A stretch of 36,156 nucleotides of DNA from an uncultured Bacilli bacterium (GTDB lineage: Bacteria > Bacillota_I > Bacilli_A > RF39 > UBA660), in the NCBI GenBank assembly GCA_947591575.1, contig CANQDI010000003.1, positions 1 through 36,156 of the forward strand, read 5' to 3'. The position numbers were made by a program, and so were the translations under genes. Below the pieces are notes generated by a model. The model searched no databases. It was not told the origin of the DNA and saw only the letters and a program-made list of their open reading frames with translations. Shown here one piece after another: positions 264-36,156 of this stretch (its first letter is position 1; each line of letters starts with the position of its first letter).

Positions 264-514
264 ATTAATATTAACTCACTACCATTTCTAATATTTGTAT
301 TGATGATAATTTCATTATTATCATACACTTTACTGTCATCCTTGTTCATTAGAATATAATCTTCTTGAATATCTAATGCTACTCCTGTTAAATCAGAAAT
401 TGATTTAATGAGCATTTTTTTAATTTTCCAAACAATCTCATTAACAGGAATAAAGATATCATAAGTTTGCCCAAGCTCTGGTAGGATTAATTTTATAATG
501 ACCTTATTTTTCAT
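248..514 (-). CDS. esaB: EsaB/YukD-like ubiquitin-fold T7SS accessory protein
   Basis: Small protein of ubiquitin-like length and pattern (KVIIKLILPELGQTYDIFIPVNEIVWKIKKML...), adjacent to essC. Confidence 0.75.
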   Translation of the reverse strand: MKNKVIIKLILPELGQTYDIFIPVNEIVWKIKKMLIKSISDLTGVALDIQEDYILMNKDDSKVYDNNEIIINTNIRNGSELILITNKK

Positions 515-3500
515 CTAAATCATCCTCCTGAGTCACAAAATCAATGAGTCTACATAAGGTGCCTACACTTTCATTGATGACATATCCCATATCATTTTTA
601 TATTCTTTTTGCATGTCTCTATTAATTGTTGTTAAATGGAATAAACTTTGATCAGATAATCCTTTTCCTATCCATAGACCATCATTCAGACTAAAGTCAT
701 TTGTAAACCATTCCTCAAAGCTAAATGATTTAATCTTAGAAGGTTCATCCATCAAAACAATACTTGCTTTTTCATATTCTTTTAATTTACTGATTAATTC
801 AGATATTTTAGTGGAATCAATTAATTTATTGATTAATTTATTTAATCCATAAACAAATATAACTCCTCTCATATCACTATTACTTTCTTTTAATTGGTCA
901 ATATAATGAATGATGGCATCTATTTTTTCATCGAATTGATCTATATAGTAGTTTGGCATTTTTTGTTGATCAATCGACAATTGTTTTAATGGATCCAGTA
1001 CGACTATAAATAGATTTTTCATATGTAGCAAAACTGTCAGCAAACTCATAAAGAACTTATTCATATTATTAAGTTTATTCGATGAAATAAGATAGCCACA
1101 ATTTGATAACAAATCTATTTTCATCACTTCTAAGTCTTTTTTACTAATTCCAATAGGTATATCATTTAAATCTGTAATTTCTTTTTGAATATGTTCCATT
1201 CTAACAATACTTGGTAATGTTTGAATTTGTTCTGCACTGATTGGATTAATTGTTTTTTGTTGATCAATGAAAATAAGTATTTTTTCATTCAATTCTTCTT
1301 CATTGGACGTAATTTTAGCTGTTTGAAATTCATGAATATCATCAATAAAACAAAGTCCTCTACCAAAGATATCCCTAGGAACTAATATTTTTTTACTATT
1401 GAATACAGTTTGATAATCGCTGCTATCTTTTAATTTGAATGCATAACTAGTTTGACAATCTTGAGAAATTTTACTATGAACAGAATTAATTGCATTAGCA
1501 GTAATTAAAAAGATAACTCCATATCTTTCTGAATCTCTAATAAGATCAGAAATATCTTCTACAAAATCTGGATTAGCATCATAAATAGAATCATAATTAT
1601 TAAAGATAACCACTTTTAATGGAAGTTTTTGAGTACTATTATGAATATAGTTTATATATTCACCGCCATAATCAGCAAAGAGTCGTTTTCTCTGTTGTAG
1701 TTCTTCTCGAATGGTTTTTAATAAATTATGATATTTTTCGTCATCTGAAGCATATACAATACCTCCAATATGTGGTAATTTTTCAAATCTACGTAATGAT
1801 TCAGATCCGTAATCAACAATATAAAAATTCACTTCATTTACTCGATGATTTTTAGCTGCGGAATAAATGAGGGTACTAAGTAGATTTTCTTTTTCGCTAC
1901 CATCATTTCCATAAATTATTGTATTTCCATTTTCTAAATAGTTATAGATGACACATCCTTGCGTCTGTCTTTCTGGAGCATCATATTCTCCTACAATAGA
2001 TTGAACATGATACGGTTCTACTGGAATTCTATATTTTTGTTCTATCTGTTCTACTAAAATATTATCTTGAATGTTTTCTAACCATAACCGTTTAGCATAT
2101 TGACCTGTTTTTTTTGCAACATCAATAATTACTTTCATAATTGCTGAGATTTGTTCTCCTTCAGCTACTACTTTTCGATTGGTTCCTGCTTGAATGCTTT
2201 TTACCGGGATACCATTATCATCTATAAAATTAATACTTTTATCCACTTGCTTTTCAATTTTATCTGATGGATAATATTTGGCCCCACACCAACCAGATTG
2301 TCCTAATACAAAATATTCATCATATCCAACTTGTAAGAAAAATCTACCTGTTTGCTTTAATGATGCTGCATCCGGTTTTTTTAACATCTCTTTACTATCT
2401 GCCTCATCTTGTACTTTTAAACAAACATGAAATTTTGCATTAGACCAAATTTGGTCTGTAACAACACCACTTGGTTTCTGTGTTGCTAAGATTAAATGAA
2501 TACCTAAACTACGTCCAATACGGGCAATACTAATTAGATTATCCATAAAATCTGGTTGTTGACTTTTTAATTCAGCAAATTCATCACATACGATAAACAA
2601 GTGTGGGATAGCTTCTTCTAATTTTCCTTCTTTATAAAATTTTTGGTATTTATAAATATCGATTGTACTTTCTCCAAGTTTATCTCTTGCCTCGTTAAAC
2701 TTCATCTGTCTTCTTTTTACTTCACTATCAATACTTACAAGGGTTCTATCCATCTCTGCTTTATCTAAGTTTGTAATCGTTCCTGCAAGATGAGGAAGAA
2801 AAATGCCAGTCATTTTGTTTTCAAAGGCAAAAGCAAGTCCTCCTCCTTTATAATCAATAAGAATAAAAGAAACATCTTCTGGACTATAATTAATTGCCAT
2901 AGAAAGAATATACGTAATAATAAATTCCGATTTACCACTACCTGTCATACCTGCAATTAATCCATGAGGTCCATGTGCTTTTTCATGCAAATCCAAATAT
3001 AATAATTGTCCGTCTTCATCTATTCCTACTTCTGCTTTTAAACTGGTTGTTGCATCATTGGTTTTCCAACGATTCAAAATATTTAATTGTTCAACTCTAC
3101 CTACTTTTTCCATTTCCAAAAAATTAATAGACTCTGGTAGCATTTTTAATCCTTCTTCAAATTCAATAGGAATATTAGATAATATTTTGGTAATTTGCAT
3201 CATATCAATTTGTTGTTGTAGTTCATCTTTAAAAGAGATTTGTTCTTGTTTTTCAAATGAATTTTTGAGTACTCCAGAGACATTCGTTCCCAATGTAATG
3301 AAGTTATTACATTTACTAGGAAGTTTACTGATTCTTTCTTCTAATATGACCACACTAAATCCTAAATCTACATCTGTCTCTGTAATGGTTTTAATAAATT
3401 CAAACCGTTTTACTGCATCATAATTATCAATAATAATTAAAAAATGTGGTTTAAATGAAGATACTTTTTTTTCTTCATAGGAACTTAATCGACTATTGAC

Positions 3501-5075
3501 TTCGCCATTTAATACTTCTGCAAGTATCTTCGTACTTTCTTCATCAGATGCAAAAAAACGGAAGCTTTTATTGTTCGTAAATGTATGATTCAAATACTTC
3601 ATATATTCCCAATTATCTTTATTTTTATGATCTGTAAAAATAGCAAATTTTAAATCCTCATAACTATAGAAAGATAATAATTGAACAAGCATATTATTCA
3701 TGAAAGTAGTCTTTTGGTTTCCCATAATAGCAGTAATTCTATTTTCATAAAAAGAATATCCAATTGGAACATTTTCAATATATTTAAATTCTTGTACCAA
3801 TTGATCTGCATTCTTTCTTAAAACACTTTCTTCTACAGAAAAATCTTCTTCAGCATAAGATACTTTTACATTTAATAACTCATTACCAACACCAATTCTT
3901 ACAACTAAAAAATCACTTTGATCAATTCTTTTATCCCACAAACCAACTGATCTATTCATAATATTTTTTAAACATTCTTCTGTTGTCAACAAATTTTCAA
4001 CAAGAATTTCTTTTTGTAATCTAGCAATTTCTGTTAATTCTGTTCTCTTTTCATTTAAATAAATATTATATTTTTTAATCATATCTTTATTTTTTTTCTT
4101 TTTTAATCTCTTGTTATAAATTCTAGTTAGAAAAGGCCATAGTAACATAGACATTAGCATTGCACCACTTGTTACCAAAGAAGGCCAAGTATCTTCCATT
4201 GTATCTTTTCCATCAGAAATTCTCATAAGTATACTCAATAATGTCACTGCTGAAGTAATTCCCATTGTTAACATAGGACCTACTGTAAGAATGGCTGGTA
4301 ATTCATCATTTCCTTCTGGTTTTGGTGGAGAACTAATTTTGAGTTCTGCTTCTTTTACCATTCTTCTTAATCTAGGAGATTTTGAAAAATAATTATTTTT
4401 ATTATATAAATCTATATCTTTAATTTCAATTTCTTGTGGTTCACTATTTGTTAAAAATACTTTCTTATGTATTTTTGATTGTTCTTCGTTAAGAATTACT
4501 CTGTTTCCACATTTGTTGATGAGAAGAACGCCATTTAAGAAAATAATTTTTAGTCCATAAAGATTAATTTCATCACTATTTTGGATGACATAATTTTGTA
4601 GAAGTAAACGATTATTATTAATATATAAACAAGTTTCTTTACTAATCGTTAATAATAATTGTTGATTTTGATAATGAATCGTAATTACAAATCCATTTAG
4701 ATAAGGACAATTATAGATAATAGAATTTCCATTTGTATTGCCAATGGATAAATTGATCTTTTCATCATAGGAATAAATGCTAAAATCATTCTCATATAAA
4801 TCTGTTACGTATACTAAATAACTTTTATTATTTTTTTGGATGACATAAAATGCATTGTTTTTTAAAGCAATATCAGGAATAAAAGCGTTGGTTCCTACAA
4901 TTTTAGATGCTTCCGTAGAATACATGAACCATTCATTATCCTTTGCTACTACATTAATTAATTTACTTTCATCATCTTCAAAATCAAAACCAAAATTACC
5001 AGACACTTCTTTTGGCAATGTATAAGTTAAAAGTTTATCAGGCAAAAATAAATAAATCTTCATGGGCCCCTCCAT
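504..5075 (-). CDS. essC: Type VII secretion FtsK/SpoIIIE-family ATPase EssC/YukB
   Basis: N-terminal FHA-like region, two TM segments, Walker A GMTGSGKSE, Walker B HLFIVCDEFAEL, multiple ATPase-like domains. The in-frame start is likely the second Met (MKIYLFLP). Confidence 0.93.
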   Translation of the reverse strand: MEGPMKIYLFLPDKLLTYTLPKEVSGNFGFDFEDDESKLINVVAKDNEWFMYSTEASKIVGTNAFIPDIALKNNAFYVIQKNNKSYLVYVTDLYENDFSIYSYDEKINLSIGNTNGNSIIYNCPYLNGFVITIHYQNQQLLLTISKETCLYINNNRLLLQNYVIQNSDEINLYGLKIIFLNGVLLINKCGNRVILNEEQSKIHKKVFLTNSEPQEIEIKDIDLYNKNNYFSKSPRLRRMVKEAELKISSPPKPEGNDELPAILTVGPMLTMGITSAVTLLSILMRISDGKDTMEDTWPSLVTSGAMLMSMLLWPFLTRIYNKRLKKKKNKDMIKKYNIYLNEKRTELTEIARLQKEILVENLLTTEECLKNIMNRSVGLWDKRIDQSDFLVVRIGVGNELLNVKVSYAEEDFSVEESVLRKNADQLVQEFKYIENVPIGYSFYENRITAIMGNQKTTFMNNMLVQLLSFYSYEDLKFAIFTDHKNKDNWEYMKYLNHTFTNNKSFRFFASDEESTKILAEVLNGEVNSRLSSYEEKKVSSFKPHFLIIIDNYDAVKRFEFIKTITETDVDLGFSVVILEERISKLPSKCNNFITLGTNVSGVLKNSFEKQEQISFKDELQQQIDMMQITKILSNIPIEFEEGLKMLPESINFLEMEKVGRVEQLNILNRWKTNDATTSLKAEVGIDEDGQLLYLDLHEKAHGPHGLIAGMTGSGKSEFIITYILSMAINYSPEDVSFILIDYKGGGLAFAFENKMTGIFLPHLAGTITNLDKAEMDRTLVSIDSEVKRRQMKFNEARDKLGESTIDIYKYQKFYKEGKLEEAIPHLFIVCDEFAELKSQQPDFMDNLISIARIGRSLGIHLILATQKPSGVVTDQIWSNAKFHVCLKVQDEADSKEMLKKPDAASLKQTGRFFLQVGYDEYFVLGQSGWCGAKYYPSDKIEKQVDKSINFIDDNGIPVKSIQAGTNRKVVAEGEQISAIMKVIIDVAKKTGQYAKRLWLENIQDNILVEQIEQKYRIPVEPYHVQSIVGEYDAPERQTQGCVIYNYLENGNTIIYGNDGSEKENLLSTLIYSAAKNHRVNEVNFYIVDYGSESLRRFEKLPHIGGIVYASDDEKYHNLLKTIREELQQRKRLFADYGGEYINYIHNSTQKLPLKVVIFNNYDSIYDANPDFVEDISDLIRDSERYGVIFLITANAINSVHSKISQDCQTSYAFKLKDSSDYQTVFNSKKILVPRDIFGRGLCFIDDIHEFQTAKITSNEEELNEKILIFIDQQKTINPISAEQIQTLPSIVRMEHIQKEITDLNDIPIGISKKDLEVMKIDLLSNCGYLISSNKLNNMNKFFMSLLTVLLHMKNLFIVVLDPLKQLSIDQQKMPNYYIDQFDEKIDAIIHYIDQLKESNSDMRGVIFVYGLNKLINKLIDSTKISELISKLKEYEKASIVLMDEPSKIKSFSFEEWFTNDFSLNDGLWIGKGLSDQSLFHLTTINRDMQKEYKNDMGYVINESVGTLCRLIDFVTQEDDLDEK

Positions 5076-5164
5076 ATTCTACTTATTTAGTATATCATAA
5101 AATGAGAAAAGAGATAGGTCATAAGAAGAAAAAAATGTAATTTTTTGTTACATTTTTTCATATT

Positions 5165-5407
5165 TCATAATTTACTATTGATTCTTGGGATAATAGTATT
5201 ATCAATTTCTTTGGAAATACTTACAATATCATTTTGCATTTTATTCATTCTTTCAAGCTCTGGAATTTCATGATCTAAAAGGATAGAATTTTTTAATTGG
5301 ACTTTTAAATCATTATAGAGCGTATTTAATTGATATAATTGATTTTTAATATTGTACATATTCCGATATAAATTTCGATATTTATTTTTTATATATTCAT
5401 CATTCAT
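5165..5407 (-). CDS. Small helical T7SS-associated protein
   Basis: Predicted helical hairpin, in the T7SS operon. Confidence 0.6.
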   Translation of the reverse strand: MNDEYIKNKYRNLYRNMYNIKNQLYQLNTLYNDLKVQLKNSILLDHEIPELERMNKMQNDIVSISKEIDNTIIPRINSKL

Positions 5408-5408
5408 A

Positions 5409-5708
5409 TTATAAATCCCTTTTTATTCTAGAAAATTTTTGTTCTGTTTGTTTTCTTACTGTTTTATATTTTAACACAGTCTTTTTAAATATTGTAATAT
5501 AGTCATTGTGAATGCGATGGATTGTATTAAATTTGCGATTAAAATTGCATTGCGTTTCATATAAAAGAGTACTATTTTTACTTGTATAATCATACTGCAT
5601 ATCTCTCATCAATCTTTTTAAAGTTTCAAAATTGATCGATTCATCTCTTATATACATTTCTAATTTTTCAATAGTCTTTAATAATTTTTCTTCATCAATA
5701 TAGTTCAT
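5409..5708 (-). CDS. Small helical T7SS-associated protein
   Basis: Helical, same operon. Confidence 0.6.
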   Translation of the reverse strand: MNYIDEEKLLKTIEKLEMYIRDESINFETLKRLMRDMQYDYTSKNSTLLYETQCNFNRKFNTIHRIHNDYITIFKKTVLKYKTVRKQTEQKFSRIKRDL

Positions 5709-5716
5709 AAATCACC

Positions 5717-6277
5717 TTATATATATTCACCAATATTGATATCTTTTAAAATTTCAATATGGATTTTATTATTTTTTGATTTGACTGTTCGTTCAGTTTC
5801 TTCTACTAAATTAAAAATATTTTTTATATTTTGCTTCATATTAATGCTACTATCTCTCATTTTTATTAATTTTTGTTTTTCTTGATTTAAAAAATAAGCT
5901 TCATTCGGACAAAAGCTTACATCTAATCCTTGGTAATAGGAAATAATATTATTTAGTTGTTGAATATAGTGATCAATTGCGCTAATAACATCATTCCTAT
6001 TTTCTACTTTTATTTTCACTTTTGATCCTAAAGATTGATATTGATCGATGATATACTGATATACATTGATCATCTTATTTAATTCCTGTATATTTTTATC
6101 AATTTTATGTCGTTTTTCTTCTACACAGCTAAAAAACCTATTAGAATATTTATCATTCCAATAAGAAGAGCTTTGTATTAGATGGTGATAGATATTGATA
6201 TAATTATCATCATATTGATTTACTTTCTTTCGTAACTCAGTTAAATTTATTTTTAAGTTAGAAATATTTATTTCCAT
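5717..6277 (-). CDS. WXG100-like helical-hairpin T7SS-associated protein
   Basis: SSSYWNDKYSNRFF resembles the W-x-G/D turn of WXG100-like proteins between two long helices. Confidence 0.6.
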   Translation of the reverse strand: MEINISNLKINLTELRKKVNQYDDNYINIYHHLIQSSSYWNDKYSNRFFSCVEEKRHKIDKNIQELNKMINVYQYIIDQYQSLGSKVKIKVENRNDVISAIDHYIQQLNNIISYYQGLDVSFCPNEAYFLNQEKQKLIKMRDSSINMKQNIKNIFNLVEETERTVKSKNNKIHIEILKDINIGEYI

Positions 6278-6362
6278 CGATAATCACCTTATCATTTTCC
6301 AAATATACAACAATTAAAGTTACATTAATTGTCATATATTTGGAAAAAGATTTCCAAATTTC

Positions 6363-7007
6363 TTATTCATTTGCTGAAAAAGCTTGTGATACTTTTCCTT
6401 CAAGATCACCATAATTAGATACAGTATCTTTCAATGCTTGTTGCGTTGTATCAGTTAACTCCTTAGTAGCTTGTGAAACTTTGCTCTTAATTGTACTAAG
6501 TGAATTAATTAAGCTTTGTGCTTGATCACCACCGACAAAACCACAACTTTGTACAGCTCTTTGTGCTTGTGATAAAGCACTTGTAGCAGATGATTCAATC
6601 GTTTTTAATTTAGCAATAACTGTTCCAGCATTAGCATAATCAATACCTCTTACTCCACCAATATTTTCTTTAATACTACTCGTATTAATTCTCACATTTT
6701 TTGGTGAAAAAGATACACGACTATATGAAGTTCCTGTTCTTTCAGCCCAAGCTTGAGCAGCACTATTCATAGATGCTACTACAGAACTAAAAATATTATC
6801 TGATGATGTTAATAGTGAATCTACAGCTGGTTTAAATGAATTTCCAAAGAAAGTTTGTGCTTCTTTACATGCCCATTTATCAGCCATCCCTTTCACAAAT
6901 TGATTTTGCATATTTGTATATAATGCTGTCATTAAACTGTCATATGCTTTAATTACTGCATTAATGGATGTCCTTACTTGTGACGGATTAAAACCTGTTA
7001 ATGCCAT
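6363..7007 (-). CDS. WXG100-superfamily-like T7SS substrate (two helical-hairpin units)
   Basis: KWACKEAQTFF turn, Ala/Ser-rich helices, C-terminal YGDLE matching the YxxxD/E T7SS signal. Confidence 0.7.
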   Translation of the reverse strand: MALTGFNPSQVRTSINAVIKAYDSLMTALYTNMQNQFVKGMADKWACKEAQTFFGNSFKPAVDSLLTSSDNIFSSVVASMNSAAQAWAERTGTSYSRVSFSPKNVRINTSSIKENIGGVRGIDYANAGTVIAKLKTIESSATSALSQAQRAVQSCGFVGGDQAQSLINSLSTIKSKVSQATKELTDTTQQALKDTVSNYGDLEGKVSQAFSANE

Positions 7008-20173: not shown

Positions 20174-21676
20174 ATGAAAAAAATATTATGGTTCTTAACG
20201 ACACTTTTAGGAATTGCCTGTTTTCATATTCCATCAGTTGAAGCACAAACCGCACAATTTTATGAAGCAGAGTATATTCCAAATGTTTATATTGTAAGGG
20301 AGAGAAATGGAGTAAGATATTATCAACAAGGAAGATTTTTTCGGAATACTGTAACACAAGAACTTGCTTATTGTTTACAACCTTTCTCTAGTTTTGATGC
20401 AAATGCAACTTATGATGTTCAAGAAAAGCTAGCGGCACTTGATGATGAAACAACGAATAAACTGAAGGCTGTTGTAGCTTTTGGTTATCCTTTTATTAAT
20501 AGTGATCCTGCTTATTACATAGCTACCCAACTTAAAATTTGGCAGATCTTAGAGCCTAATGATCAATTTTACTTTACAAAAGGTTTAAATGGACCTAAGA
20601 CAACGGATTATGACTATTTATTACGATTTATTGATAATACGATCAATGTCTATAATCAAACACCAGAATTTGCTAATCAAATCTATACAACCACTGTCAA
20701 TGGCGATGTTTCTTTAAATATGCCACTTAGTAATTATTATGAGGATATTATTGAAACAGAATTATCCTATGAAAGGCATTATGATACTGTTACTTTTAAA
20801 AACTTAAAAGCTGGAGATTATACAATTAAAGTGACAAGAAAATATCAAAATGTTTCCAATACACCCATGTTATTTTACTATCATCAAAACAGTCAATGGT
20901 TGATGAATCGTGGCCTTATTGAAGATAAACATTATACTTTTCAAATCAAGGTAGTTGATACTTCCATTCATGTAATAAAAGTTGATGCAGATACAAAGAC
21001 AAAGAAACCAAGTGGAGAAGCCTCTTTGCAAGGTGCTGTTTTTTCTCTTTATCAAGGAAAAGAAAAAATAGCAACAATTACATTTGATGAATCTTTAGAA
21101 GCAATGATTTCTGTTTCCAATAAAACAATCGATTACTTACCTTTTGGAACTTATACTTTAAAAGAAGAAAAGGCAGGGAAAGGATATTTATGTAATGATA
21201 AAGAAATTGAAATCACACTTGATGCAACACATCCCAATATTGAAATTGTCCTTGAAAATAAAGTGATACAAAATAAAGTTACCATTCAAAAATTTTATGG
21301 GACAAAGCAAATCATTAAAAGTGAAAGTAACGTTTTATTTGAAATTTATGACAAAGATGGAAATATCATAAAAACAATTATGACAGATCAAGATGGAAAA
21401 TGTATATTTTATTTACCTTTTGGCAAATATACCATTCATCAAAAAACAACTATAGAAGGATATCAAAAAGTAGAAGATTTTGATATAGAAGTGAAAGAAG
21501 ATCAAAAAGAACATCACTTTACATTATATGACCAAGAAATTCCTAAAGAAGAAAAGCCACAGGAACCAACCGTTGAAATTGAAGTTCCCGATACAAGTGC
21601 AAAAGCGATATCACCCTTTTTTATCATTGGAGCAATAGCAGGATTATCTTATGTCCAAAAGAAAAATAGGATGTAG
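20174..21676 (+). CDS. Thioester-domain (TED) surface adhesin with SpaA/Cna_B-like repeats and sortase signal
   Basis: Signal peptide; YCLQP...TQLKIWQ thioester signature; repeats with TYTLKEEKAGKGY and KYTIHQKTTIEGY; C-terminal VPDTSA-hydrophobic-KKNR. Confidence 0.8.
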   Translation: MKKILWFLTTLLGIACFHIPSVEAQTAQFYEAEYIPNVYIVRERNGVRYYQQGRFFRNTVTQELAYCLQPFSSFDANATYDVQEKLAALDDETTNKLKAVVAFGYPFINSDPAYYIATQLKIWQILEPNDQFYFTKGLNGPKTTDYDYLLRFIDNTINVYNQTPEFANQIYTTTVNGDVSLNMPLSNYYEDIIETELSYERHYDTVTFKNLKAGDYTIKVTRKYQNVSNTPMLFYYHQNSQWLMNRGLIEDKHYTFQIKVVDTSIHVIKVDADTKTKKPSGEASLQGAVFSLYQGKEKIATITFDESLEAMISVSNKTIDYLPFGTYTLKEEKAGKGYLCNDKEIEITLDATHPNIEIVLENKVIQNKVTIQKFYGTKQIIKSESNVLFEIYDKDGNIIKTIMTDQDGKCIFYLPFGKYTIHQKTTIEGYQKVEDFDIEVKEDQKEHHFTLYDQEIPKEEKPQEPTVEIEVPDTSAKAISPFFIIGAIAGLSYVQKKNRM

Positions 21677-22217
21677 TCTTCTCATTCTTTTCCTTGTAGT
21701 AGGACTTAGTATATTTATAACAAGAAAAGAAGAAAACATGGTAACCACTGTTTTTTCTTCCTTTCAAGAAAGAATGAGTGTTGGAAGAAAAAAATTAGCA
21801 TTGAAAGAAGATACAGCAATTGGAAGTCTTTTAATTCCTAAAATTCATTTACAAAAAAAGCTCTATGCAGTGGAAGATAAGAGAAATACGATCTCACAAA
21901 ATGTTACAATATTAAAAGAATCTAATTATCCTGATCAAGAAGGAAGTACGCTTTATTTAGCTGCACATTCCGGAAATGCCAAGAATTCTTATTTTGAAAA
22001 ACTAGATCAATTAACTATTGGAGATTTCGTAGAAATACATTTTAAAAAGAACGTTTACACCTATCAAATTGATCAAATAGAAAGTCAAGTAAAAACAGGA
22101 AAAATTACGGTTCCTATTTCCGCTAAGAAACAACTGATTCTAACAACTTGTCATCCTAAAGAAAAAGATAAGCAATTAGTTTTAGTGGCTTATATCCAAA
22201 AAGAAACAGATTCTTAA
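21651..22217 (+). CDS. Sortase family protein
   Basis: N-terminal TM; AAHSGN (His) and LTTCHP (Cys) motifs; overlaps adhesin gene by 26 bp. Confidence 0.85.
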   Translation: MSKRKIGCSLLILFLVVGLSIFITRKEENMVTTVFSSFQERMSVGRKKLALKEDTAIGSLLIPKIHLQKKLYAVEDKRNTISQNVTILKESNYPDQEGSTLYLAAHSGNAKNSYFEKLDQLTIGDFVEIHFKKNVYTYQIDQIESQVKTGKITVPISAKKQLILTTCHPKEKDKQLVLVAYIQKETDS

Positions 22218-27621: not shown

Positions 27622-27643
27622 AAGGTTTCCCCTCTATTTTTAT
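27611..27643. terminator. Convergent terminator between DUF378 gene and cdaR
   Basis: AAAAATAGAAGG..CCCTCTATTTTT. Confidence 0.6.
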
Positions 27644-28995
27644 TTTGCGGTAATACGTACTTTTACTTTCTTTGTTTTCGATGAATAAGAAAGACGAACA
27701 TCATCACCTGTAACTTTCACTTCTACTTCATGTTCTCCTGGACCATAATCTTTTAAATCAATATAAGGATGAAGTGAAGAACTTTCTAGGCCATCAATGA
27801 TGTCTTTACTTCCCTTTACCACTACAGTCACAATGCTATCTGCTTCTGTTAGTGCTTGTACTCGGTAATTTTGATTTAAGTTTTCTGTAGCGATATGAAT
27901 TCCTTCAAATTCTTTTGAAGCTAAGTTATCAATTGTTACTTTCACAGTAACGGTTTTTACACTAATTTCTGTTATTCCATTTGGTCGCTCTAATGTCACT
28001 GTAAAGTCTTTATTTTGATTTAGTCCTTCAACATTGATTTCTACTGGAATAGACGTTACTGCAGCAAGTGCTTCTTCACTACCATAAATTGTAACATTAC
28101 TTACAGAAGAGCTTAATGATTTAATAGACTTACCAAATGCAAGTTCTCCTTTTGGAACAATTCTTAATGGCACTTCTTTACTAGGTGATGTAATTTTAAC
28201 TTTTGCAGTAACCGTTTTTGGAACAATTTCTACATCCATGATTTTTCCATCTATATCATAAGCTTTTAATGGAACATTTTCAAGAACTAAATCTCCCGCT
28301 TGTGGTTTTGCAAAATCATCAACGTCTACCAAGGCTTTCACGGCAGCTACTTGATCAAGACGATATTTAGCACCTTTTACAATGACTTCGCTACGATCCA
28401 GTTCAACACTATCAATATTGAGTTTTGTATCCAAATTATCTTTATGTAAAATATCGGTTGTAAGTGCTTTGGTCTGAGATGCTTTCTCATAAATCGTAAT
28501 ACTTACTTCACTTGGATCCAATCGATAATCTAGTGACTTTAAGCGTTGTGAGTATTTTAATGTTACTTTGTGTGTACCTGGCTTTAATCCTGTAAGATCA
28601 ACTGTAACTCCTCCAGAGGGAGATTGCTTTGCAAGAAAAATATGTCTCTTTTGGCCAACTAATGTAATATCAACTGTCTTAGGAAGTCCTTCTACAACAT
28701 AAGCCTCTTCATTATAAGTTGCAGTGACAGGTTGATTATAAAGTACTTCTGCATATTGATCAATTAAAGTATTACTTTCTCCATCAATGATTAAGAAAAT
28801 ACTAAAAGCAAGAATTAATGAGATGATAATTAATGTTTGTTTTTTTCCTAAAAAACGTTCAAAAGTTCTACCATTACTTTTAAAAAATTCACTGACTCGT
28901 AATACTACTTTTGTAATGGGGGTAATTAACCATTTATCAAAGAATAAACCAATATGACGAAATACGTTTTTAATACCTTTAATTATTTTCTTCAT
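27640..28995 (-). CDS. cdaR: YbbR-domain protein CdaR (c-di-AMP cyclase regulator)
   Basis: N-terminal TM, several YbbR repeats, overlaps cdaA. Confidence 0.88.
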   Translation of the reverse strand: MKKIIKGIKNVFRHIGLFFDKWLITPITKVVLRVSEFFKSNGRTFERFLGKKQTLIIISLILAFSIFLIIDGESNTLIDQYAEVLYNQPVTATYNEEAYVVEGLPKTVDITLVGQKRHIFLAKQSPSGGVTVDLTGLKPGTHKVTLKYSQRLKSLDYRLDPSEVSITIYEKASQTKALTTDILHKDNLDTKLNIDSVELDRSEVIVKGAKYRLDQVAAVKALVDVDDFAKPQAGDLVLENVPLKAYDIDGKIMDVEIVPKTVTAKVKITSPSKEVPLRIVPKGELAFGKSIKSLSSSVSNVTIYGSEEALAAVTSIPVEINVEGLNQNKDFTVTLERPNGITEISVKTVTVKVTIDNLASKEFEGIHIATENLNQNYRVQALTEADSIVTVVVKGSKDIIDGLESSSLHPYIDLKDYGPGEHEVEVKVTGDDVRLSYSSKTKKVKVRITAK

Positions 28996-29812
28996 ATATC
29001 TCTTCCTCTTCTAATGCTTCTTCATCTAAATCTATACTTTGTTTAGGTTTTAACTCATCAATTAACATCATTCTTACATCATCAATTGTTAAATTATAAA
29101 AAAGTTCTCCCTTCACAGCAATAGATAATCTTCCCGTCTCTTCTGAAACAATTAAAGCAATCGCATCAGTTTCTTCAGCAATTCCTAAAGCAGCACGGTG
29201 TCTTGTCCCTAGTCGTTTAGATATTTTGCTACTACTACTTGTTGGAAATACTGCCCCAGCACAAGTAATACGATCTCCTTGAATGATAACTCCTCCATCA
29301 TGAAGAGGATTATTAGGAAAGAAGATAGATATTAATAGATCACTGGATAAGTCTCCATAAATTTTTTTCGCTTTATCAATATAATTTCCAAGACTAATAT
29401 CTCTTTCTAATACAATCAACGCTCCGATTCTTTGTTTTCTAAGTTGATCTGTTGCTTGAACAATTTCATATACAAGGCGTTCTCTTTCATCTACTGTTAA
29501 GACTTTATGTCTTCCTAATAATTGGCTTCTTCCTAATTGCTCTAAAATGGTACGAATTTCTGGTTGAAAGACAATGATGAGTGCAAGAGGTCCCCACATA
29601 ATTACATACTCAAGTAAAACACCTACTGTTGTAAATCCAAAGAAATCACTTGCTAATTTTAATAATACAATGAGAATAACTCCCTTAAATAAAAGAGTTA
29701 ATTTTACATTGTTTCTTATATTTTTTAAAATAACATAGATTAACATCCAAACAATTGAAATATCAATAATTTTTTTGATAATTGATAAGATGGTTGACAT
29801 GTTTATAAGCAT
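28979..29812 (-). CDS. cdaA: Diadenylate cyclase CdaA
   Basis: N-terminal TMs; DGGVIIQGDRI and GTRHRAALGIAE. Confidence 0.95.
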   Translation of the reverse strand: MLINMSTILSIIKKIIDISIVWMLIYVILKNIRNNVKLTLLFKGVILIVLLKLASDFFGFTTVGVLLEYVIMWGPLALIIVFQPEIRTILEQLGRSQLLGRHKVLTVDERERLVYEIVQATDQLRKQRIGALIVLERDISLGNYIDKAKKIYGDLSSDLLISIFFPNNPLHDGGVIIQGDRITCAGAVFPTSSSSKISKRLGTRHRAALGIAEETDAIALIVSEETGRLSIAVKGELFYNLTIDDVRMMLIDELKPKQSIDLDEEALEEEEIYEENN

Positions 29813-29826
29813 TTCTTCTTCCTCCT

Positions 29827-29873
29827 ATTTTCGACATATTTTACAGTATATCGTATTTTTATCGTCATTTCAA
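29827..29873 (-). promoter_or_regulatory. cdaA promoter with downstream 0A-box-like site
   Basis: TTGAAA-N17-TATACT, then ATGTCGAAAAT (29837-29827) just before AGGAGG. Confidence 0.65.
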
Positions 29874-29876
29874 GTT

Positions 29877-30683
29877 TTACTTTTGTTCCTTTAAAGGCTC
29901 TACGTTTGGTACTTCTACTACAGGAATCGTTACAGGATTTGTTGATGGCGGCACTGGTTGAGAAGGAGAAAGAGGGGGTACTGGTATAGATACTTGCGTT
30001 TCATTTTGTGTCGTAGGTTGAGGAATGACAGGAGTTGGAATAGACACTTCAGGTGTTGACACCATCGTAGTTCCTTCTGCACTATCCGTTGTAATTGGAT
30101 TCACTTCCGGAATTGATTCTGAAACAGGTTGAATAGGAGAAGGTATTTCTGGGGGAACGGGAGCTGAATCTCTAACTTCTTCTATAGTAGGTTCGACAAC
30201 AGGAATGGTTGGAATAGATGGAGGAGGTGTCACAACAGGTGTAGAAACTTGATTAGAAGAGATAGGCTCACTAATAGGTGAAACTGCTACTGGAGGAGTC
30301 ACTTCAGCAACAGGAGTTACAATTGTATTTTGTGCTTCTGTTAACACATTAGTCGAAGGAATTGATTCTGGTGGAGACATTGGAGAGACTACTGATACTT
30401 GAGGGGGAACAGGAATATTTGAGATAGGAGTTTGTTCGACTGGTGTTGAAAGGGGAACTTCTGCTGCCTGAGTCCCAGTAACTTCCTCTATAGTAGCTGC
30501 TTTTTGAGAAGAAGCATCTACTGTTGCATACTTTTCTTTCTCTTTCTTATCCTTGAGCTTTCTTTCTGCTAAATAACCAATACACGCAAAAAGTAAAATG
30601 ACACATAAAACAACCGTTGCAATATATAAAGGGCCATCTAAAGTATCCCTAAAAAAATAAATTATTTTATCCATTTTCTTCAC
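29877..30683 (-). CDS. Single-TM Pro/Val/Thr-rich protein of unknown function
   Basis: N-terminal TM followed by long low-complexity P/V/T/S-rich region. Confidence 0.7.
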   Translation of the reverse strand: MKKMDKIIYFFRDTLDGPLYIATVVLCVILLFACIGYLAERKLKDKKEKEKYATVDASSQKAATIEEVTGTQAAEVPLSTPVEQTPISNIPVPPQVSVVSPMSPPESIPSTNVLTEAQNTIVTPVAEVTPPVAVSPISEPISSNQVSTPVVTPPPSIPTIPVVEPTIEEVRDSAPVPPEIPSPIQPVSESIPEVNPITTDSAEGTTMVSTPEVSIPTPVIPQPTTQNETQVSIPVPPLSPSQPVPPSTNPVTIPVVEVPNVEPLKEQK

Positions 30684-30779: not shown

Positions 30780-31379
30780 TTATTTATAATGTTGATTCGC
30801 ATACGAAAAATTGGCAATTTCAAAAAAGTTCTCTAAGTATTTCCTTTTATCATCTTTATTATTCAAATAATATGCATGTTCCCACATATCCGTACAAAAT
30901 AAAGGTAGATACCCATATTGTAAGGGATTATCTTGATTCATTGTCGTAATGATTTCAATATTATCTTTACCCGTTTTAACAAGAAATACATAGCCCGACC
31001 CTTTTATATTAAGGGCATACTCTATCCATTTTTCTTTCATCTTATCAAAGCTTCCAAATTTTTGATTGATAGCTTCTTTTAGTGGACCTGTGGGAAGTTC
31101 TTTATTTTTAGGATTGATAGATTGCCAATATAAATCATGATTTAAAACACCACCTAAATAAAAAAGCAACTGATTTTGTTCTTTAGGTGCAAATGAGGAT
31201 AAATGATGATATAGTTCTTCCATAGGATAAGAAAAAGAAAAAGCATTTTTTAAAAGTAACTGATTGAGTTGATTTAAATAATTTCTTTGATGTTTCTGAT
31301 AATGTAGTCCCATCGTATGAGTATCAATAAATGGTTCTAAATCCTGATATAAAAATGGTAATGATTTTAATGAATACAT
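30780..31379 (-). CDS. Fe/Mn superoxide dismutase family protein
   Basis: HTMGLHYQKHQRNYL, GGVLNHDLYW, DMWEHAYY metal ligands retained. Confidence 0.88.
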   Translation of the reverse strand: MYSLKSLPFLYQDLEPFIDTHTMGLHYQKHQRNYLNQLNQLLLKNAFSFSYPMEELYHHLSSFAPKEQNQLLFYLGGVLNHDLYWQSINPKNKELPTGPLKEAINQKFGSFDKMKEKWIEYALNIKGSGYVFLVKTGKDNIEIITTMNQDNPLQYGYLPLFCTDMWEHAYYLNNKDDKRKYLENFFEIANFSYANQHYK

Positions 31380-31434
31380 ATAACCTCCACTTTATCATAT
31401 GATAACAAAAAAAAAGAAAGAACCTTTTTATTTC

Positions 31435-32151
31435 TCATTTTTGTTTGGCATAAGAAGATGCTTCTTTTAAAAAACGTTTTAAAATAAGCGATGCATATTG
31501 ATCATAGGAAATCATACTTTCTGGATGCCACTGAACACCTAAAACAAACCGTTTATGAGGATCCTCTATTGCTTCTATTAATCCATCTTCTGAATAACCA
31601 CAAATTTTTAAATGATTGATTTTCTCCGCATGATAACGATGTCTACTATTTACCTTTATTGTATCTACTTTTACAATATCACTTAACAAAGTATCCTTTA
31701 CAATATTGACTTCATGTACATACTGTTTTTCTCGATCATTATGATTGATTTTAGTATCATTTATCACTGTGTTATCATATGCGATATCTTTCATATTGCA
31801 ATCCATTTTTGCCATCATTTGCATTCCTAAACAAATTCCTAAAATCGGCATATTAAGTGCAAGAGCTTCCTGATAAATATACTCATCATAAGCTTCCCAC
31901 TTATATCCTCCTTGTAATAAAAGGCCATCACATAGACTTAATATTTTTTGAATATCTGCTTTTTCCTCGTTATAAGATTTCTTTAAATCTATAGTAAGAT
32001 GTTTTGGTACTAATAAAATAGGAATCCCGCCTTCTTCATCAATACTTTTTTGAATATGTTCCCACATGCAAAATGCCTTGTCATGATCCCATAGCTCATC
32101 AAATCTTCCTACAACACCAATTATTGGTTTAAAACAATTCATGAATATCAT
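31435..32151 (-). CDS. Gamma-glutamyl-GABA hydrolase-like class I amidotransferase (peptidase C26, PuuD-like)
   Basis: GICLGMQMM nucleophile elbow, GVQWHPE; likely start ATG at 32142 after AGGAGATGATATTC. Confidence 0.88.
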   Translation of the reverse strand: MIFMNCFKPIIGVVGRFDELWDHDKAFCMWEHIQKSIDEEGGIPILLVPKHLTIDLKKSYNEEKADIQKILSLCDGLLLQGGYKWEAYDEYIYQEALALNMPILGICLGMQMMAKMDCNMKDIAYDNTVINDTKINHNDREKQYVHEVNIVKDTLLSDIVKVDTIKVNSRHRYHAEKINHLKICGYSEDGLIEAIEDPHKRFVLGVQWHPESMISYDQYASLILKRFLKEASSYAKQK

Positions 32152-32270: not shown

Positions 32271-32304
32271 GTGAACCTAAGAGAAGAAGTATGACAACTA
32301 TTTT
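32271..32304. repeat. R1 core, partial and degenerate copy
   Basis: gtgaacctaagagaagaagtatgacaactatttt, similar to gtgccctcagggaagacgtacgacaactatttt at 35171. Confidence 0.5.
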
Positions 32305-32429
32305 TACTTAAATAATAATAGAAAATATTAAAAAAGACAGTCGAAATTATGCTATAGTTGCAACAATGTAAAGAGTGTTTTTTAATTATCAAAAGATAAG
32401 GTATCTTTTTGGTCAATTAACATAGTAAT

Positions 32430-33044
32430 CTACATTTTCTTTAAAACTTTCTGGTTCTCTAATTCAATATGTTTTTCTACGATTATGCCAGCCAAAAATA
32501 TTAAATTATGGATTCCATCTATAGAAATAGTTTCTTCGTCTTCTACATTATTTTTTAAACTAATTATTTTTATTTCACTAAATATATTAGGATCTATCCT
32601 CTGTTCCTTTGGAATAAAATATACATAACCAATTGTTACTCTTTTATTATTTTCTTCAGATATTTTTTGGGCCATTGTTTTAGTTTTATCCATCTCATCT
32701 TTGGAAAAATAATCAGATCCATCTAACAATATAAAATCACAATTTTTAGGAATATCTTCTTTTCTCAACCGTGTGTACGCAGTTCCACTACCAAAAATAT
32801 AGGCATGAAAATTATCATATTTTCTTTCTAGTATTGTAAACTGGCTCCAATAGGCATTATGTGCCATAAGCATAAAACTTGTGTTTACTCCGTTGTTCAA
32901 TCTTTTTATAAAAGGATTATTTTCTATAGTATTCAAACAAAATCCCCCAATCAATATTATAATATTATTTTTAAAGTTATTTATAATAATGGGCATATTA
33001 TATACCGCCATTAATCCTGTTCCACCAATCATAGAAATCATCAT
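32430..33044 (-). CDS. Hypothetical protein; coding-like sequence extends upstream without a clear start
   Basis: Long ORF; in-frame upstream KKVLQEKFWKIRYRFQKVRDF before the first ATG. Confidence 0.55.
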   Translation of the reverse strand: MMISMIGGTGLMAVYNMPIIINNFKNNIIILIGGFCLNTIENNPFIKRLNNGVNTSFMLMAHNAYWSQFTILERKYDNFHAYIFGSGTAYTRLRKEDIPKNCDFILLDGSDYFSKDEMDKTKTMAQKISEENNKRVTIGYVYFIPKEQRIDPNIFSEIKIISLKNNVEDEETISIDGIHNLIFLAGIIVEKHIELENQKVLKKM

Positions 33045-33139
33045 AAAATCTCTAACTTTTTGAAATCTGTATCTAATTTTCCAAAATTTTTCTTGTAAAA
33101 CTTTTTTCAGTAATAGTTATACATATTTTTTCTTTTGGT

Positions 33140-33478
33140 CTAAAATTTCACTGATTTTTTCAATACCTTTTCTAAAAATATTTTATTTTCAAATGTTCCC
33201 TTTTTTGTTCCTTTTTCTTGTGCGATAGCAATAACTTCCTCTAATGTTGCATTTTCTAATCTAGCTAAATATTTCATTATTTCTAACATATCGGCTAACT
33301 CTTCTATTCTATCCTTTCCAGTTGCGTTTAAAACTTCTTGATATTCCTCATTTAATTTTTTTTCTAGTTCAACTTTATATTCTTCATCAGTTAGAATTCT
33401 AGTAATTGGTTCTTCATCATTTGATTTAATTATTTCAGGTATCTTATCTCTTACCAATTTATTATATATTTGTTCCAT
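33140..33478 (-). CDS. MazG/PRA-PH-like nucleoside triphosphate pyrophosphohydrolase
   Basis: YNKLVRDKIPEII; EEYQEVL...EELADMLEIM. Confidence 0.88.
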   Translation of the reverse strand: MEQIYNKLVRDKIPEIIKSNDEEPITRILTDEEYKVELEKKLNEEYQEVLNATGKDRIEELADMLEIMKYLARLENATLEEVIAIAQEKGTKKGTFENKIFLEKVLKKSVKF

Positions 33479-33499
33479 ATTTTATCTCCTCTTTCTATA

Positions 33500-33547
33500 T
33501 TGATATTGTTAATATGTAGGTGTATTTTCTAGTTTGACAAGAGTCAA
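33500..33547. repeat. R2 copy 1
   Basis: attgttaatatgtaggtgtattttctagtttgacaa, upstream of MazG-like CDS. Confidence 0.65.
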
Positions 33548-33567
33548 TTTCAAACTATAAATAGTTT

Positions 33568-33660
33568 ATCATAAATCGAAAGATCTTAAAACTCGAACTA
33601 TAAAAGTCCAAATTTTCTATCACCTAGTGCCCTAAAGGAAAGAGTATGACAACTTTATTT
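33568..33660. repeat. R1 copy 1
   Basis: Near-ungapped match to 35111-35203; abuts and overlaps stop of 33655 CDS. Confidence 0.85.
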
Positions 33661-34158
33661 AATCAATTTTTTACAGATATTTGTAAAATTATTTTGATAG
33701 TTCTGACATTTTAAAAACATTGAACTAAATGCTGAAGCTATTATTTCATTTTTACTACCACTTAAACAAAAACAAATAGGACATAAAAACTTGTTATTAA
33801 ATTCTCGATTAGGATTTTGATAAAATCTAATAGAAAAAGTATTATTTTGAAATGTAATTATTAATTTATTCGCTTTTTCGTAAATTCCGTAATCTTCACT
33901 ATCCCATGTAAAAATATTATTAATTAGTGTTTTATTATAGGGATCATCGTATTTTTGAATAATTTTAAACAATTGCTGCATCTTAGAAAATAGAAAAGAA
34001 TCGTCTTCAGTCACATTAAATTCGTTATGTTCATCATAATGTAACATAATCCAATAAAAATCAGCTCCACTAAATTGCATTAGAAAACTTTGGTTTTTAT
34101 CATTTTTTAACTCAATCGAGCATCTTCGATTACTATCTTCTATTTTATTGATTTCCAT
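33655..34158 (-). CDS. Hypothetical protein
   Basis: ORF with cassette-like flanks; RBS AAGGAG. Confidence 0.6.
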   Translation of the reverse strand: MEINKIEDSNRRCSIELKNDKNQSFLMQFSGADFYWIMLHYDEHNEFNVTEDDSFLFSKMQQLFKIIQKYDDPYNKTLINNIFTWDSEDYGIYEKANKLIITFQNNTFSIRFYQNPNREFNNKFLCPICFCLSGSKNEIIASAFSSMFLKCQNYQNNFTNICKKLIK

Positions 34159-34181
34159 TTAAAAAATCACTCCTTATGTAT

Positions 34182-34228
34182 ATTGTCTTTGTCAATACGT
34201 AAGTATGTTTTCTAAGTTGACAGAGAAT
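34182..34228. repeat. R2 copy 2
   Basis: ctttgtcaatacgtaagtatgttttctaagttgacagag. Confidence 0.7.
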
Positions 34229-34390
34229 AATTATTATAGATATCAATGGAATTTAAAAAAGGGCATCCTTAACATATTCATCATAACCTGAAGAAGAACT
34301 TTTTGCAAGTTCTCTATATTAAAGTTCGAGCAGATTCGTAAATGGTGCGATTATGTAAGATATCTACAACTTATAATAAACTTATAATTA

Positions 34391-35017
34391 TTACTTTTTT
34401 AATTTTTTTATAGAATTATTTTGTAATAAATCTTGATACTCTCCAGTTTTAGATACAATATTATATGGATGTGATTGTCTAAAAAGTTTACGTTCTTCTT
34501 GAGGCATTTCCAATACCTCATCCGCTATATCTATATGTAATATACCATCTAAGTGATCCATCTCATGCGATAAAACAGTTGATTCAAATCTTTCAAAAAT
34601 CTCTCTATGTTTTTCTCCATCCATATCAAAATATTCAACTAAAATTTTATATGGTCTTTTTACATGTCCCATAAAGTCCAAACAACTAGCACAAGCTTCC
34701 CAATAATCAGTAAGACCATATCTTTCAATAATCACTGGATTGATTAACACTCTTGCTTCATTATAATTTTCTTCATTTTCAGTAGTTTCGTTTTTCTGCA
34801 TTTTATTAATAATGTCCAAATTTGTATTTTTGAGATATACAAGTCTTTTTGGAATTCCAAGTTGTACAGCAGCCATTGCCATTACTTCATTTTCCTTACA
34901 AAACTCTGCTAGCACATTAATATTATTCTTCAAATTTTTGTCATTTAAATTAACCTTGGCGGAAACTTGTCTCAAATATTTTTCATTATCTTTTATTGTA
35001 ATTGCTTTTATTTTCAT
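34391..35017 (-). CDS. Divergent peptide deformylase-like protein
   Basis: MAAVQLG (motif 1), EACAS (motif 2), HEMDH (motif 3). Confidence 0.85.
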   Translation of the reverse strand: MKIKAITIKDNEKYLRQVSAKVNLNDKNLKNNINVLAEFCKENEVMAMAAVQLGIPKRLVYLKNTNLDIINKMQKNETTENEENYNEARVLINPVIIERYGLTDYWEACASCLDFMGHVKRPYKILVEYFDMDGEKHREIFERFESTVLSHEMDHLDGILHIDIADEVLEMPQEERKLFRQSHPYNIVSKTGEYQDLLQNNSIKKLKK

Positions 35018-35037
35018 ATTTAATTTCTCCCTTCAGA

Positions 35038-35085
35038 ATATTGCTCATTTCAATATGCAAGTATGTTTTCTAAATTGACAAATAT
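35038..35085. repeat. R2 copy 3
   Basis: tttcaatatgcaagtatgttttctaaattgacaaa. Confidence 0.7.
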
Positions 35086-35110
35086 ATCAATTAAAATCTA
35101 CAAAAATTAT

Positions 35111-35203
35111 ATAATAAATTTAAAGATTTTAAAACTCGAACTATAAAAGTCCGAGTTTCATATTAATCTGGTGCCCTCAGGGAAGACGTACGACAACTAT
35201 TTT
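35111..35203. repeat. R1 copy 2
   Basis: Hairpin AAACTCG..CGAGTTT plus GTGCCCTCAGGGAAGACGTACGACAACT; matches 33568-33660 and 36112-36156. Confidence 0.88.
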
Positions 35204-35263
35204 CTTTGTTAACACGCATATAATTTTGACAATTTGCAAGTGTGTTTTCTATATTAACAAAGT
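35204..35263. repeat. R2 copy 4 with extended arms CTTTGTTAA/TTAACAAAG
   Basis: caatttgcaagtgtgttttctatattaacaaag; perfect 9-bp outer arms. Confidence 0.65.
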
Positions 35264-35276
35264 AAAATTATTCCAA

Positions 35277-36095
35277 TTATTTTTGTTTATTTTCTATCTT
35301 TTTTACAAGTCTTTTTAATAACATTTGTTTATGCTTATAATCATCGTTAATTATTTCATTGCTTCTACTTTGTTCGGTATCTGCAAGTGTTTTATATCCA
35401 TCTTCTATAGTATCAATATTTATTAAAATAAATTGTTCTTTTAGTTTTTCTAACTCTTCAAATGAGATTTCATCAATTTTATTTTCTATTTGATAATTAA
35501 TTACAGAATCAATAAAGCATTTAACATATGGGAACCCTTTAAAACTTATATTTTGATTAACTCTACACATTCCATCTGTCTTATAAAATGATAATTCATT
35601 AGGCCATTTACTTTGTGACCATTCATCACATAATTTAATTGCTAAACCATTTTTCAATAAATAATTAATATATCTTGCTTGTACTCTTCTAGGATCTTTA
35701 ATTTTTTCAATTATATCCTTTGACATAATCATAAAAATATTCCAAAAAGCTGCAGGCGACTCACCATCAACATGATATAATAAACTTTGTGGAACATAAG
35801 TTTTTCCTTCAAAAGTACTAATAAGTTCACTCAAAACTATACTAATATCTTCTCTATTTAAAATAGAATATTTTTCTATAAGATTGCAATAATTATATGT
35901 TTCAATATATGCAAATTCAAACTCATTCTCATATTTTCGATCTAAACTTGCATATTTTTCTTCAATTTTTTGTATTGCCTCTTTAATTTCTTGTTCTTTA
36001 CTACTATTTAAATCTTTTCTAGATTGTAATAAACTACTTTTTCTATTTCTTAATTTACTCAAACTTGCATTAAAATCCACTTTCAAAACCTCCAT
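35277..36095 (-). CDS. Hypothetical protein; likely real start is GTG near 36080 (GGAGG lies 8 nt upstream)
   Basis: Long ORF with coiled-coil N-terminus; minus strand GGAGGTTTTGAAAGTG. Confidence 0.65.
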   Translation of the reverse strand: MEVLKVDFNASLSKLRNRKSSLLQSRKDLNSSKEQEIKEAIQKIEEKYASLDRKYENEFEFAYIETYNYCNLIEKYSILNREDISIVLSELISTFEGKTYVPQSLLYHVDGESPAAFWNIFMIMSKDIIEKIKDPRRVQARYINYLLKNGLAIKLCDEWSQSKWPNELSFYKTDGMCRVNQNISFKGFPYVKCFIDSVINYQIENKIDEISFEELEKLKEQFILINIDTIEDGYKTLADTEQSRSNEIINDDYKHKQMLLKRLVKKIENKQK

Positions 36096-36111
36096 TAAAC
36101 ATGATTATTGT

Positions 36112-36156
36112 ATCATAAATTTAAAAATTTTAAAACTTGAACTATAAAAGTCCGAG
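36112..36156. repeat. R1 copy 3, truncated by window end
   Basis: 42 of 45 positions identical (hand count) to 35111-35155. Confidence 0.85.

Follow-up and report, generated by a model that had tools for sequence, protein, structure and literature searches.

A probable array of tRNA-docked, mostly single-gene cassettes at a contig end of an uncultured Bacilli bacterium

The window analysed here is the whole of contig C3 (36,156 bases) from a genome of an uncultured Bacilli bacterium (G000, 96% complete). Its last part, from 32275 to 36156, carries a row of genes, all on the minus strand, which are separated by copies of a non-coding repeat, R1, and the row is cut where the contig ends at 36156. 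A first-pass annotation had described this segment as a modular, integron-type cassette array with R1 as a single block of ~93 bp. Among the five genes, the call of a peptide deformylase is borne out (Pfam, E 1.6e-32), while that of a MazG-like protein is weak, being a PRA-PH match whose E of 0.0049 does not reach the curated cut-off. The remaining three genes of the array (272, 167 and 204 amino acids) have no Pfam match, and an Rfam search of the array found no match. Repeat comparison recovered R1 at the annotated places, including the degenerate copy (32276-32304); the annotation is also correct on the hairpin, the -10-like hexamers and the stop codon that directly adjoins AGTTGTC (33655/33654). 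To the three copies and the degenerate one a fourth junction has to be added, at 34324-34371, which has other end types and had been missed. The features of the array are collected in Table 1.

Table 1. Features of the window array (32275-36156), listed from the contig end inwards
Feature	Position	Strand	Basis
Left end of cassette A (LE1 hairpin, promoter), cut by contig end	36096..36156	-	repeat comparison, left-end model, synteny
Cassette A gene, 272 aa, no family match	35277..36095	-	relatives in cassettes of other genomes
D1-like leader/hairpin element, here behind cassette A gene	35225..35272	-	repeat comparison
Right end of cassette A, type REa, AGTTGTCGTACGTCTTCCCTGAGGG	35174..35198	-	right-end comparison
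CACCA core, junction A/B	35169..35173	-	
Left end LE1 of cassette B, terminator-like hairpin CTCGGAC-TTTTATA-GTTCGAG	35123..35168	-	left-end model
D1 leader of cassette B	35046..35093	-	
Cassette B gene, peptide deformylase homologue, HEMDH motif	34391..35017	-	Pfam
Right end of cassette B, type REb, AGTTGTAGATATCTTACATAATCG	34348..34371	-	right-end comparison
CACCA core, junction B/C	34343..34347	-	
Left end of cassette C, LE2 type	34290..34342	-	
D1 leader of cassette C	34188..34235	-	
Cassette C gene, 167 aa, no family match	33655..34158	-	
Right end of cassette C, REa, directly behind stop codon	33630..33654	-	
Core of junction C/D, here CACTA	33625..33629	-	
Left end LE1 of cassette D	33575..33624	-	left-end model
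D1 leader of cassette D	33505..33552	-	
Cassette D gene 1, MazG/PRA-PH-like, 112 aa	33140..33478	-	weak Pfam match
Cassette D gene 2, 204 aa, no family match	32430..33044	-	
Terminal degenerate right end (REa), array/chromosome boundary	32275..32299	-	

R1 is composite rather than a single block, its two halves being element ends joined at CACCA: the right end (RE, e.g. AGTTGTCRTACTCCTTCCTTTAGGG) of one cassette, the CACCA core and the left end (LE) of the next. It is read in this way because the second half of R1 elsewhere starts immediately behind the CCA of a tRNA. The left end is laid out as a GATTGATAGnAAACTCGGAC start and a hairpin, followed by a promoter and a leader. Three copies of the family are 84-92% identical over 50 nucleotides (nt) and two are 81% identical over 77 nt, and BLAST of the 98-nt block against the window genome gave matches, several of them weak, on contigs C3, C10, C35, C6, C20, C55, C43 and others. 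A sequence model of the left end, searched at E 0.001 or better, finds 13 matches in the same genome, and R1 is thus not a chance repeat. At least three classes of left end occur (LE1, LE2 and one starting TNGGAAA, the last read by eye), all with a TCGRAC box 12-14 nt behind CACCA. The offset of this box is fixed, with 166 LE1 sharing one position and 21 LE2 having it one base nearer. RNAalifold returned no pairs for the aligned left ends, probably since loop lengths vary. Right ends fall into several sequence classes, REa to REe. Many LE1 ends are followed at ~100 nt by the D1 leader (TTGTCAATTTAGAAAACACACTTGCATATTG...CAATATGC), whose hairpin-like arms seem to co-vary; this leader also occurs between genes without a left end.

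The 240 distinct left-end contexts place the element at the 3' ends of tRNA and transfer-messenger RNA (tmRNA) genes: a tRNA lies directly upstream in 107 (ARAGORN), ~15 others have recognisable tmRNA/tRNA 3' ends, and most of the rest show a right end. As the loci surveyed were picked by similarity to the element, these fractions are no population estimates. In the window genome, left ends stand immediately behind CCA in eight of the 28 tRNA genes found, namely Leu(taa), Leu(tag), Leu(caa), Lys(ctt), Arg(tct) and Thr(ggt), with variant ends at Gly(gcc) and Cys(gca). The array at tRNA-Leu(caa), on contig C6, comprises seven left ends, and one of its units holds two open reading frames (ORFs) on the opposite strand. 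In three congeners, counting only tRNAs with no further tRNA behind them, cassettes occupy 14 of 27 that end in CACCA, as against two of 20 with other endings (both CTCCA), a difference (Fisher p 0.004) that is indicative only, the genomes being related and not independent and the motif rule used for the calls missing a few degenerate left ends. Behind several terminal RE-CACCA ends lies a hairpin and T-run terminator of the tRNA type, which fits a displacement of the tRNA's own terminator by the insert. No duplicated tRNA 3' segment marking the inserts was found; CACCA alone is common to both sides, and the right ends differ from the host tRNA. As to the window array itself, orthologues of the genes at 27640-30683 adjoin tRNA-Thr(cgt) in both congeners used for synteny (G004 and G282), each time with other genes between them, and this tRNA is absent from the window assembly. 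Most likely, therefore, it lies just past 36156 and would anchor the array.

The comparison with these two congeners also provides an empty site. Behind tRNA-Arg(tct) the window genome has a cassette where both congeners, whose flanks are orthologous, have an ordinary terminator; the occupied and empty sequences agree up to CCA, which puts the junction exactly there. The sites at tRNA-Thr(ggt), Leu(caa), Lys(ctt) and Ala(tgc) are filled differently among the three genomes, and the cargo at the window locus differs in all three, so that R1 is not a fixed, syntenic element whose neighbouring genes stay unshuffled. In addition, cassette DNA is 93-97% identical across sites and genera, for example 96.6% over 594 bp between units at tRNA-Leu(caa) and tRNA-Ala, and 93.0% over 1565 bp between tRNA-Thr(ggt) of G004 and an array of G107; as a background, the XerC/XerD proteins of the window genome share 43-51% of their residues with the ones in G107, G108, G140 and G111. 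The MazG/PRA-PH-like gene of cassette D shares 85-95% amino acid identity with cassette genes at other sites. In the clearest pairs homology spans CACCA to CACCA. The first-pass annotation had proposed looking for breakpoints at the AGTTGTC core; the main break is CACCA, and AGTTGT is the start of the right end, where homology stops in one clear pair. This is the window deformylase cassette, which matches one of G107 at 94.1% over 810 bp from CACCA up to AGTTGT and beyond it has a right end of a different class, indicating that right ends can also be swapped. An immobile R1, that is, a shared terminator and promoter spread by homologous recombination between tRNA-adjacent genes, would fit the terminator-like hairpin and promoter in the left end, but it is highly improbable and largely refuted by the empty site, the base-exact CCA boundary, the identity of cassettes across genera and the displaced terminators.

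The units are small and their contents mixed. Behind the left ends 195 different first genes were counted (some overlapping loci twice), falling into 115 clusters. The 58 cassettes closed by a following left end measure 0.5-3.7 kb (median ~0.9 kb), and 42 of them hold one ORF. The cargo includes GNAT, NUDIX and HD proteins, glycosyltransferases, peptidases, deformylase, a radical SAM protein, ADP-ribosylglycohydrolase and many proteins without a match, and a few resemble candidate defence proteins.

Because of the unit boundaries, the placement at tRNA and tmRNA genes, the empty site, the transfer between genera and the differing syntenic cargo, all of them read from sequence, the units are very probably mobile cassettes of tRNA ends. 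The window segment is likely to be part of an array of such tRNA-docked single-gene cassettes, moved by a recombinase supplied in trans. Each cassette would consist of a left end directly behind CACCA, usually one gene, and a right end closing with CACCA, and would be inserted by site-specific recombination in the CACCA of a tRNA or tmRNA 3' end. The RNA gene would stay intact and its own terminator be pushed to the far side of the insert, with the terminator-like hairpin of the left end standing in for it, followed by a promoter and often a leader. Further cassettes entering the same site, or internal RE-CACCA-LE junctions, would build up arrays. On the tRNA side the recombinase may recognise the T-loop box GTTCRA, and in the left end the mirrored TCGRAC 12-14 nt past CACCA; it could be the host XerC/XerD or an integrase from another element; in this wording its role might as readily fail as hold. 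Several observations weigh against this account of mobile cassettes and their recombinase. A TCGRAC box is missing from the far side of empty sites, and the mirrored box can thus not be required in every target; likewise, the right ends lack GTTCRA at the tRNA spacing. In some cassette pairs homology begins 30-450 bp inside the left end, showing that left ends decay or get exchanged. The cassette genomes are draft metagenome-assembled genomes, and the occupancy counts carry the dependence noted above. Moreover, no intact tyrosine recombinase other than Xer was found in the cassette genomes G000, G004, G108, G138 and G082 (completeness of the genomes searched 91-96%, so that missed genes are possible), and none of the surveyed loci has an integrase-like ORF inside a cassette or ties any enzyme to the cassettes.

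The first-pass annotation had seen no integrase in the window and had proposed a recombinase search near its ends. Across the whole window genome PF00589 matches XerC and XerD only, plus a sub-cut-off fragment, and neither is an integron integrase, their catalytic parts scoring 125 and 94 bits on TIGR02249, for which the cut-off is 265. As XerC and XerD are the only recombinases present in every cassette genome tested, they might themselves move the cassettes, in the manner of Xer-exploiting integrative elements. Right ends begin AGTTNNCATA.., loosely like the XerD arm AGTTAACATAA (as read from dif-like sites), yet this match is weak and by estimate not above chance, the crossover would be expected next to the arm, ~14 nt off the observed CACCA break, and tRNA ends have no Xer arms, which makes this route unlikely. 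A dif-like origin of the right end was likewise set aside for its weak resemblance, and the junction as a whole resembles a dif-like site only loosely. Other candidates for a universal enzyme were also rejected. No family of tyrosine recombinases apart from Xer extends to all cassette genomes. Serine recombinases, though frequent, are lacking in G138, and those of different genomes do not form a single orthologous group. Y1 transposases and reverse transcriptases are patchy, and PF01797 is missing from G000 and from most of the cassette genomes tested. A reverse transcriptase, as for an RNA intermediate, is absent from G107, G108 and G082. The window genome has three adjacent ORFs of 244, 524 and 540 amino acids (L297, G000:C9, 2903-6913), of which the larger two match the serine recombinase family and the 244-aa ORF is similar by eye.

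The cassettes may instead be relics of ordinary tRNA-targeting integrase elements, cis-mobilisable, with tRNA-derived ends and moved by a passing element. Such an element of 2.3 kb sits in tRNA-Ala directly before a cassette array (L274, G140:C28, 7004-9415), its far end repeating the tRNA 3' end, and another (L278) ends at an LE2 cassette with a tRNA-Gly-like 3' end; right ends, too, resemble altered T-arm/acceptor ends. Integrase elements, however, have their own left ends and duplicate ~13-20 bp of the tRNA, whereas CACCA is all that cassettes have in common with different tRNAs, and five cassette genomes have no such integrase, so that this origin is doubtful.

The right ends offer a further lead. 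Many REb sequences can adopt a fold resembling the acceptor/T-arm half of a tRNA, and their outer strands pair better with their own partner, only 1/300 strand swaps reaching the observed pairing; with all right-end classes pooled, 0/300 do so, whereas for REa alone the pairing is not significant (25/300). Given that the strand windows were picked after inspecting folds, which makes the test somewhat favourable, it lends moderate support to a tRNA-like structure. A structure-dependent route, in which the right end is recognised by shape as a folded acceptor/T-arm mimic in single-stranded DNA or RNA, would draw on the strand swaps and on several compensated stems. It is quite improbable, though, with REa about as common as REb and without significant pairing, and with both reverse transcriptase and Y1 transposase absent from cassette-rich genomes such as G108. 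More tentatively, the system could be an independently evolved, genome-wide counterpart of integrons in a lineage that hardly has any, with tRNA/tmRNA 3' ends as docks and right ends mimicking the acceptor/T-arm, shape-recognised by an unknown or repurposed host enzyme; this is a minority possibility.

The likeness to integrons appears right as an analogy and wrong as membership. The modular array is upheld by congener synteny, the empty site and cross-genus transfer, while its integron-type nature is not, there being no integron integrase and the target being the CCA end of a tRNA or tmRNA. Integrons and clusters of attC sites lacking integron-integrases (CALINs), i.e. attC arrays without an integrase, share with the window system tandem, mostly single-gene units, mixed cargo and variable site sequences, but here the cassettes have their own promoter, and integrons dock at one attI, the window system at many tRNA/tmRNA genes. 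By-eye inspection of the junction sequences revealed no GTTRRRY/RYYYAAC pair (attC R''/R' boxes). Cis-mobilisable elements (CIMEs), integrative and mobilisable elements (IMEs) and tycheposons also combine tRNA-targeted integration with tandem accretion, but they are bigger and either contain an integrase element or descend from one, in contrast to window units of about one gene without an integrase. Both processes have been reviewed (PMC5704250). Deformylase is also known from integron cassettes (PMC12690207), and integrons are very rare in Firmicutes according to IntegronFinder 2.0 (PMC9024848). The nearest described cases are the additive flexible genomic islands (fGIs) of 'Ca. Actinomarinales' (PMC7771536) and 'Ca. 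Methylopumilus' (fGI-2; PMC10872708), where cassettes are added at tRNA genes. Such islands occur in streamlined marine and freshwater bacteria, have short tRNA-derived repeats and reportedly undergo inter-genus exchange (PMC7771536, PMC10872708); in fGI-2, the repeat that marks the inserts is a copy of the final 20 bp of tRNA-Lys (PMC10872708). Insertion at the tRNA 3' end and cassette addition are shared, but additive islands carry partial tRNA copies, whereas the window system shares only CACCA between sites and has dedicated, conserved left and right ends, near-single-gene units and many tRNAs plus tmRNA in use. No description of it was found in the open-access literature, subscription papers and preprints lying outside the search. 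If real, it would represent distributed single-gene acquisition in reduced-genome gut bacteria almost without known integrons, leaving the essential tRNA gene undamaged. It would also supply a ready-made collection of cassette genes whose function is unknown, and it makes the question of the CACCA-cutting enzyme testable.

A census of R1 in relatives, as the first-pass annotation had proposed, matched the block at E 0.001 or better in 74 of 147 genomes of the family. In a class-wide draw 41 of 397 genomes had left-end matches, 34 of them from the family; the seven outside it are mostly weak, and the strongest (G428) is in a genome with 6% contamination. In public records, the titles of matching contigs refer to Bacilli, Tenericutes, Bacillales, Erysipelotrichaceae, Mycoplasma and uncultured bacteria, many from rabbit or ruminant gut. 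The exact LE/RE patterns were not found in viral contigs, nor the left-end region in plasmids. Matches of the left end to many enterobacterial phages cover a 44-nt AT-rich stretch at 86% and were judged a chance promoter-like similarity.

Elsewhere in the window, the region adjoining the array (30780-32151) encodes a superoxide dismutase and a C26 amidotransferase, and as C26-type amidotransferases are also cassette genes elsewhere, the latter may be an older cassette. A large EssC-like ATPase with small proteins at 504-7007 resembles a type VII secretion cluster, and at 20174-22217 a sortase-like ORF comes after the gene of a pilin-like surface protein.

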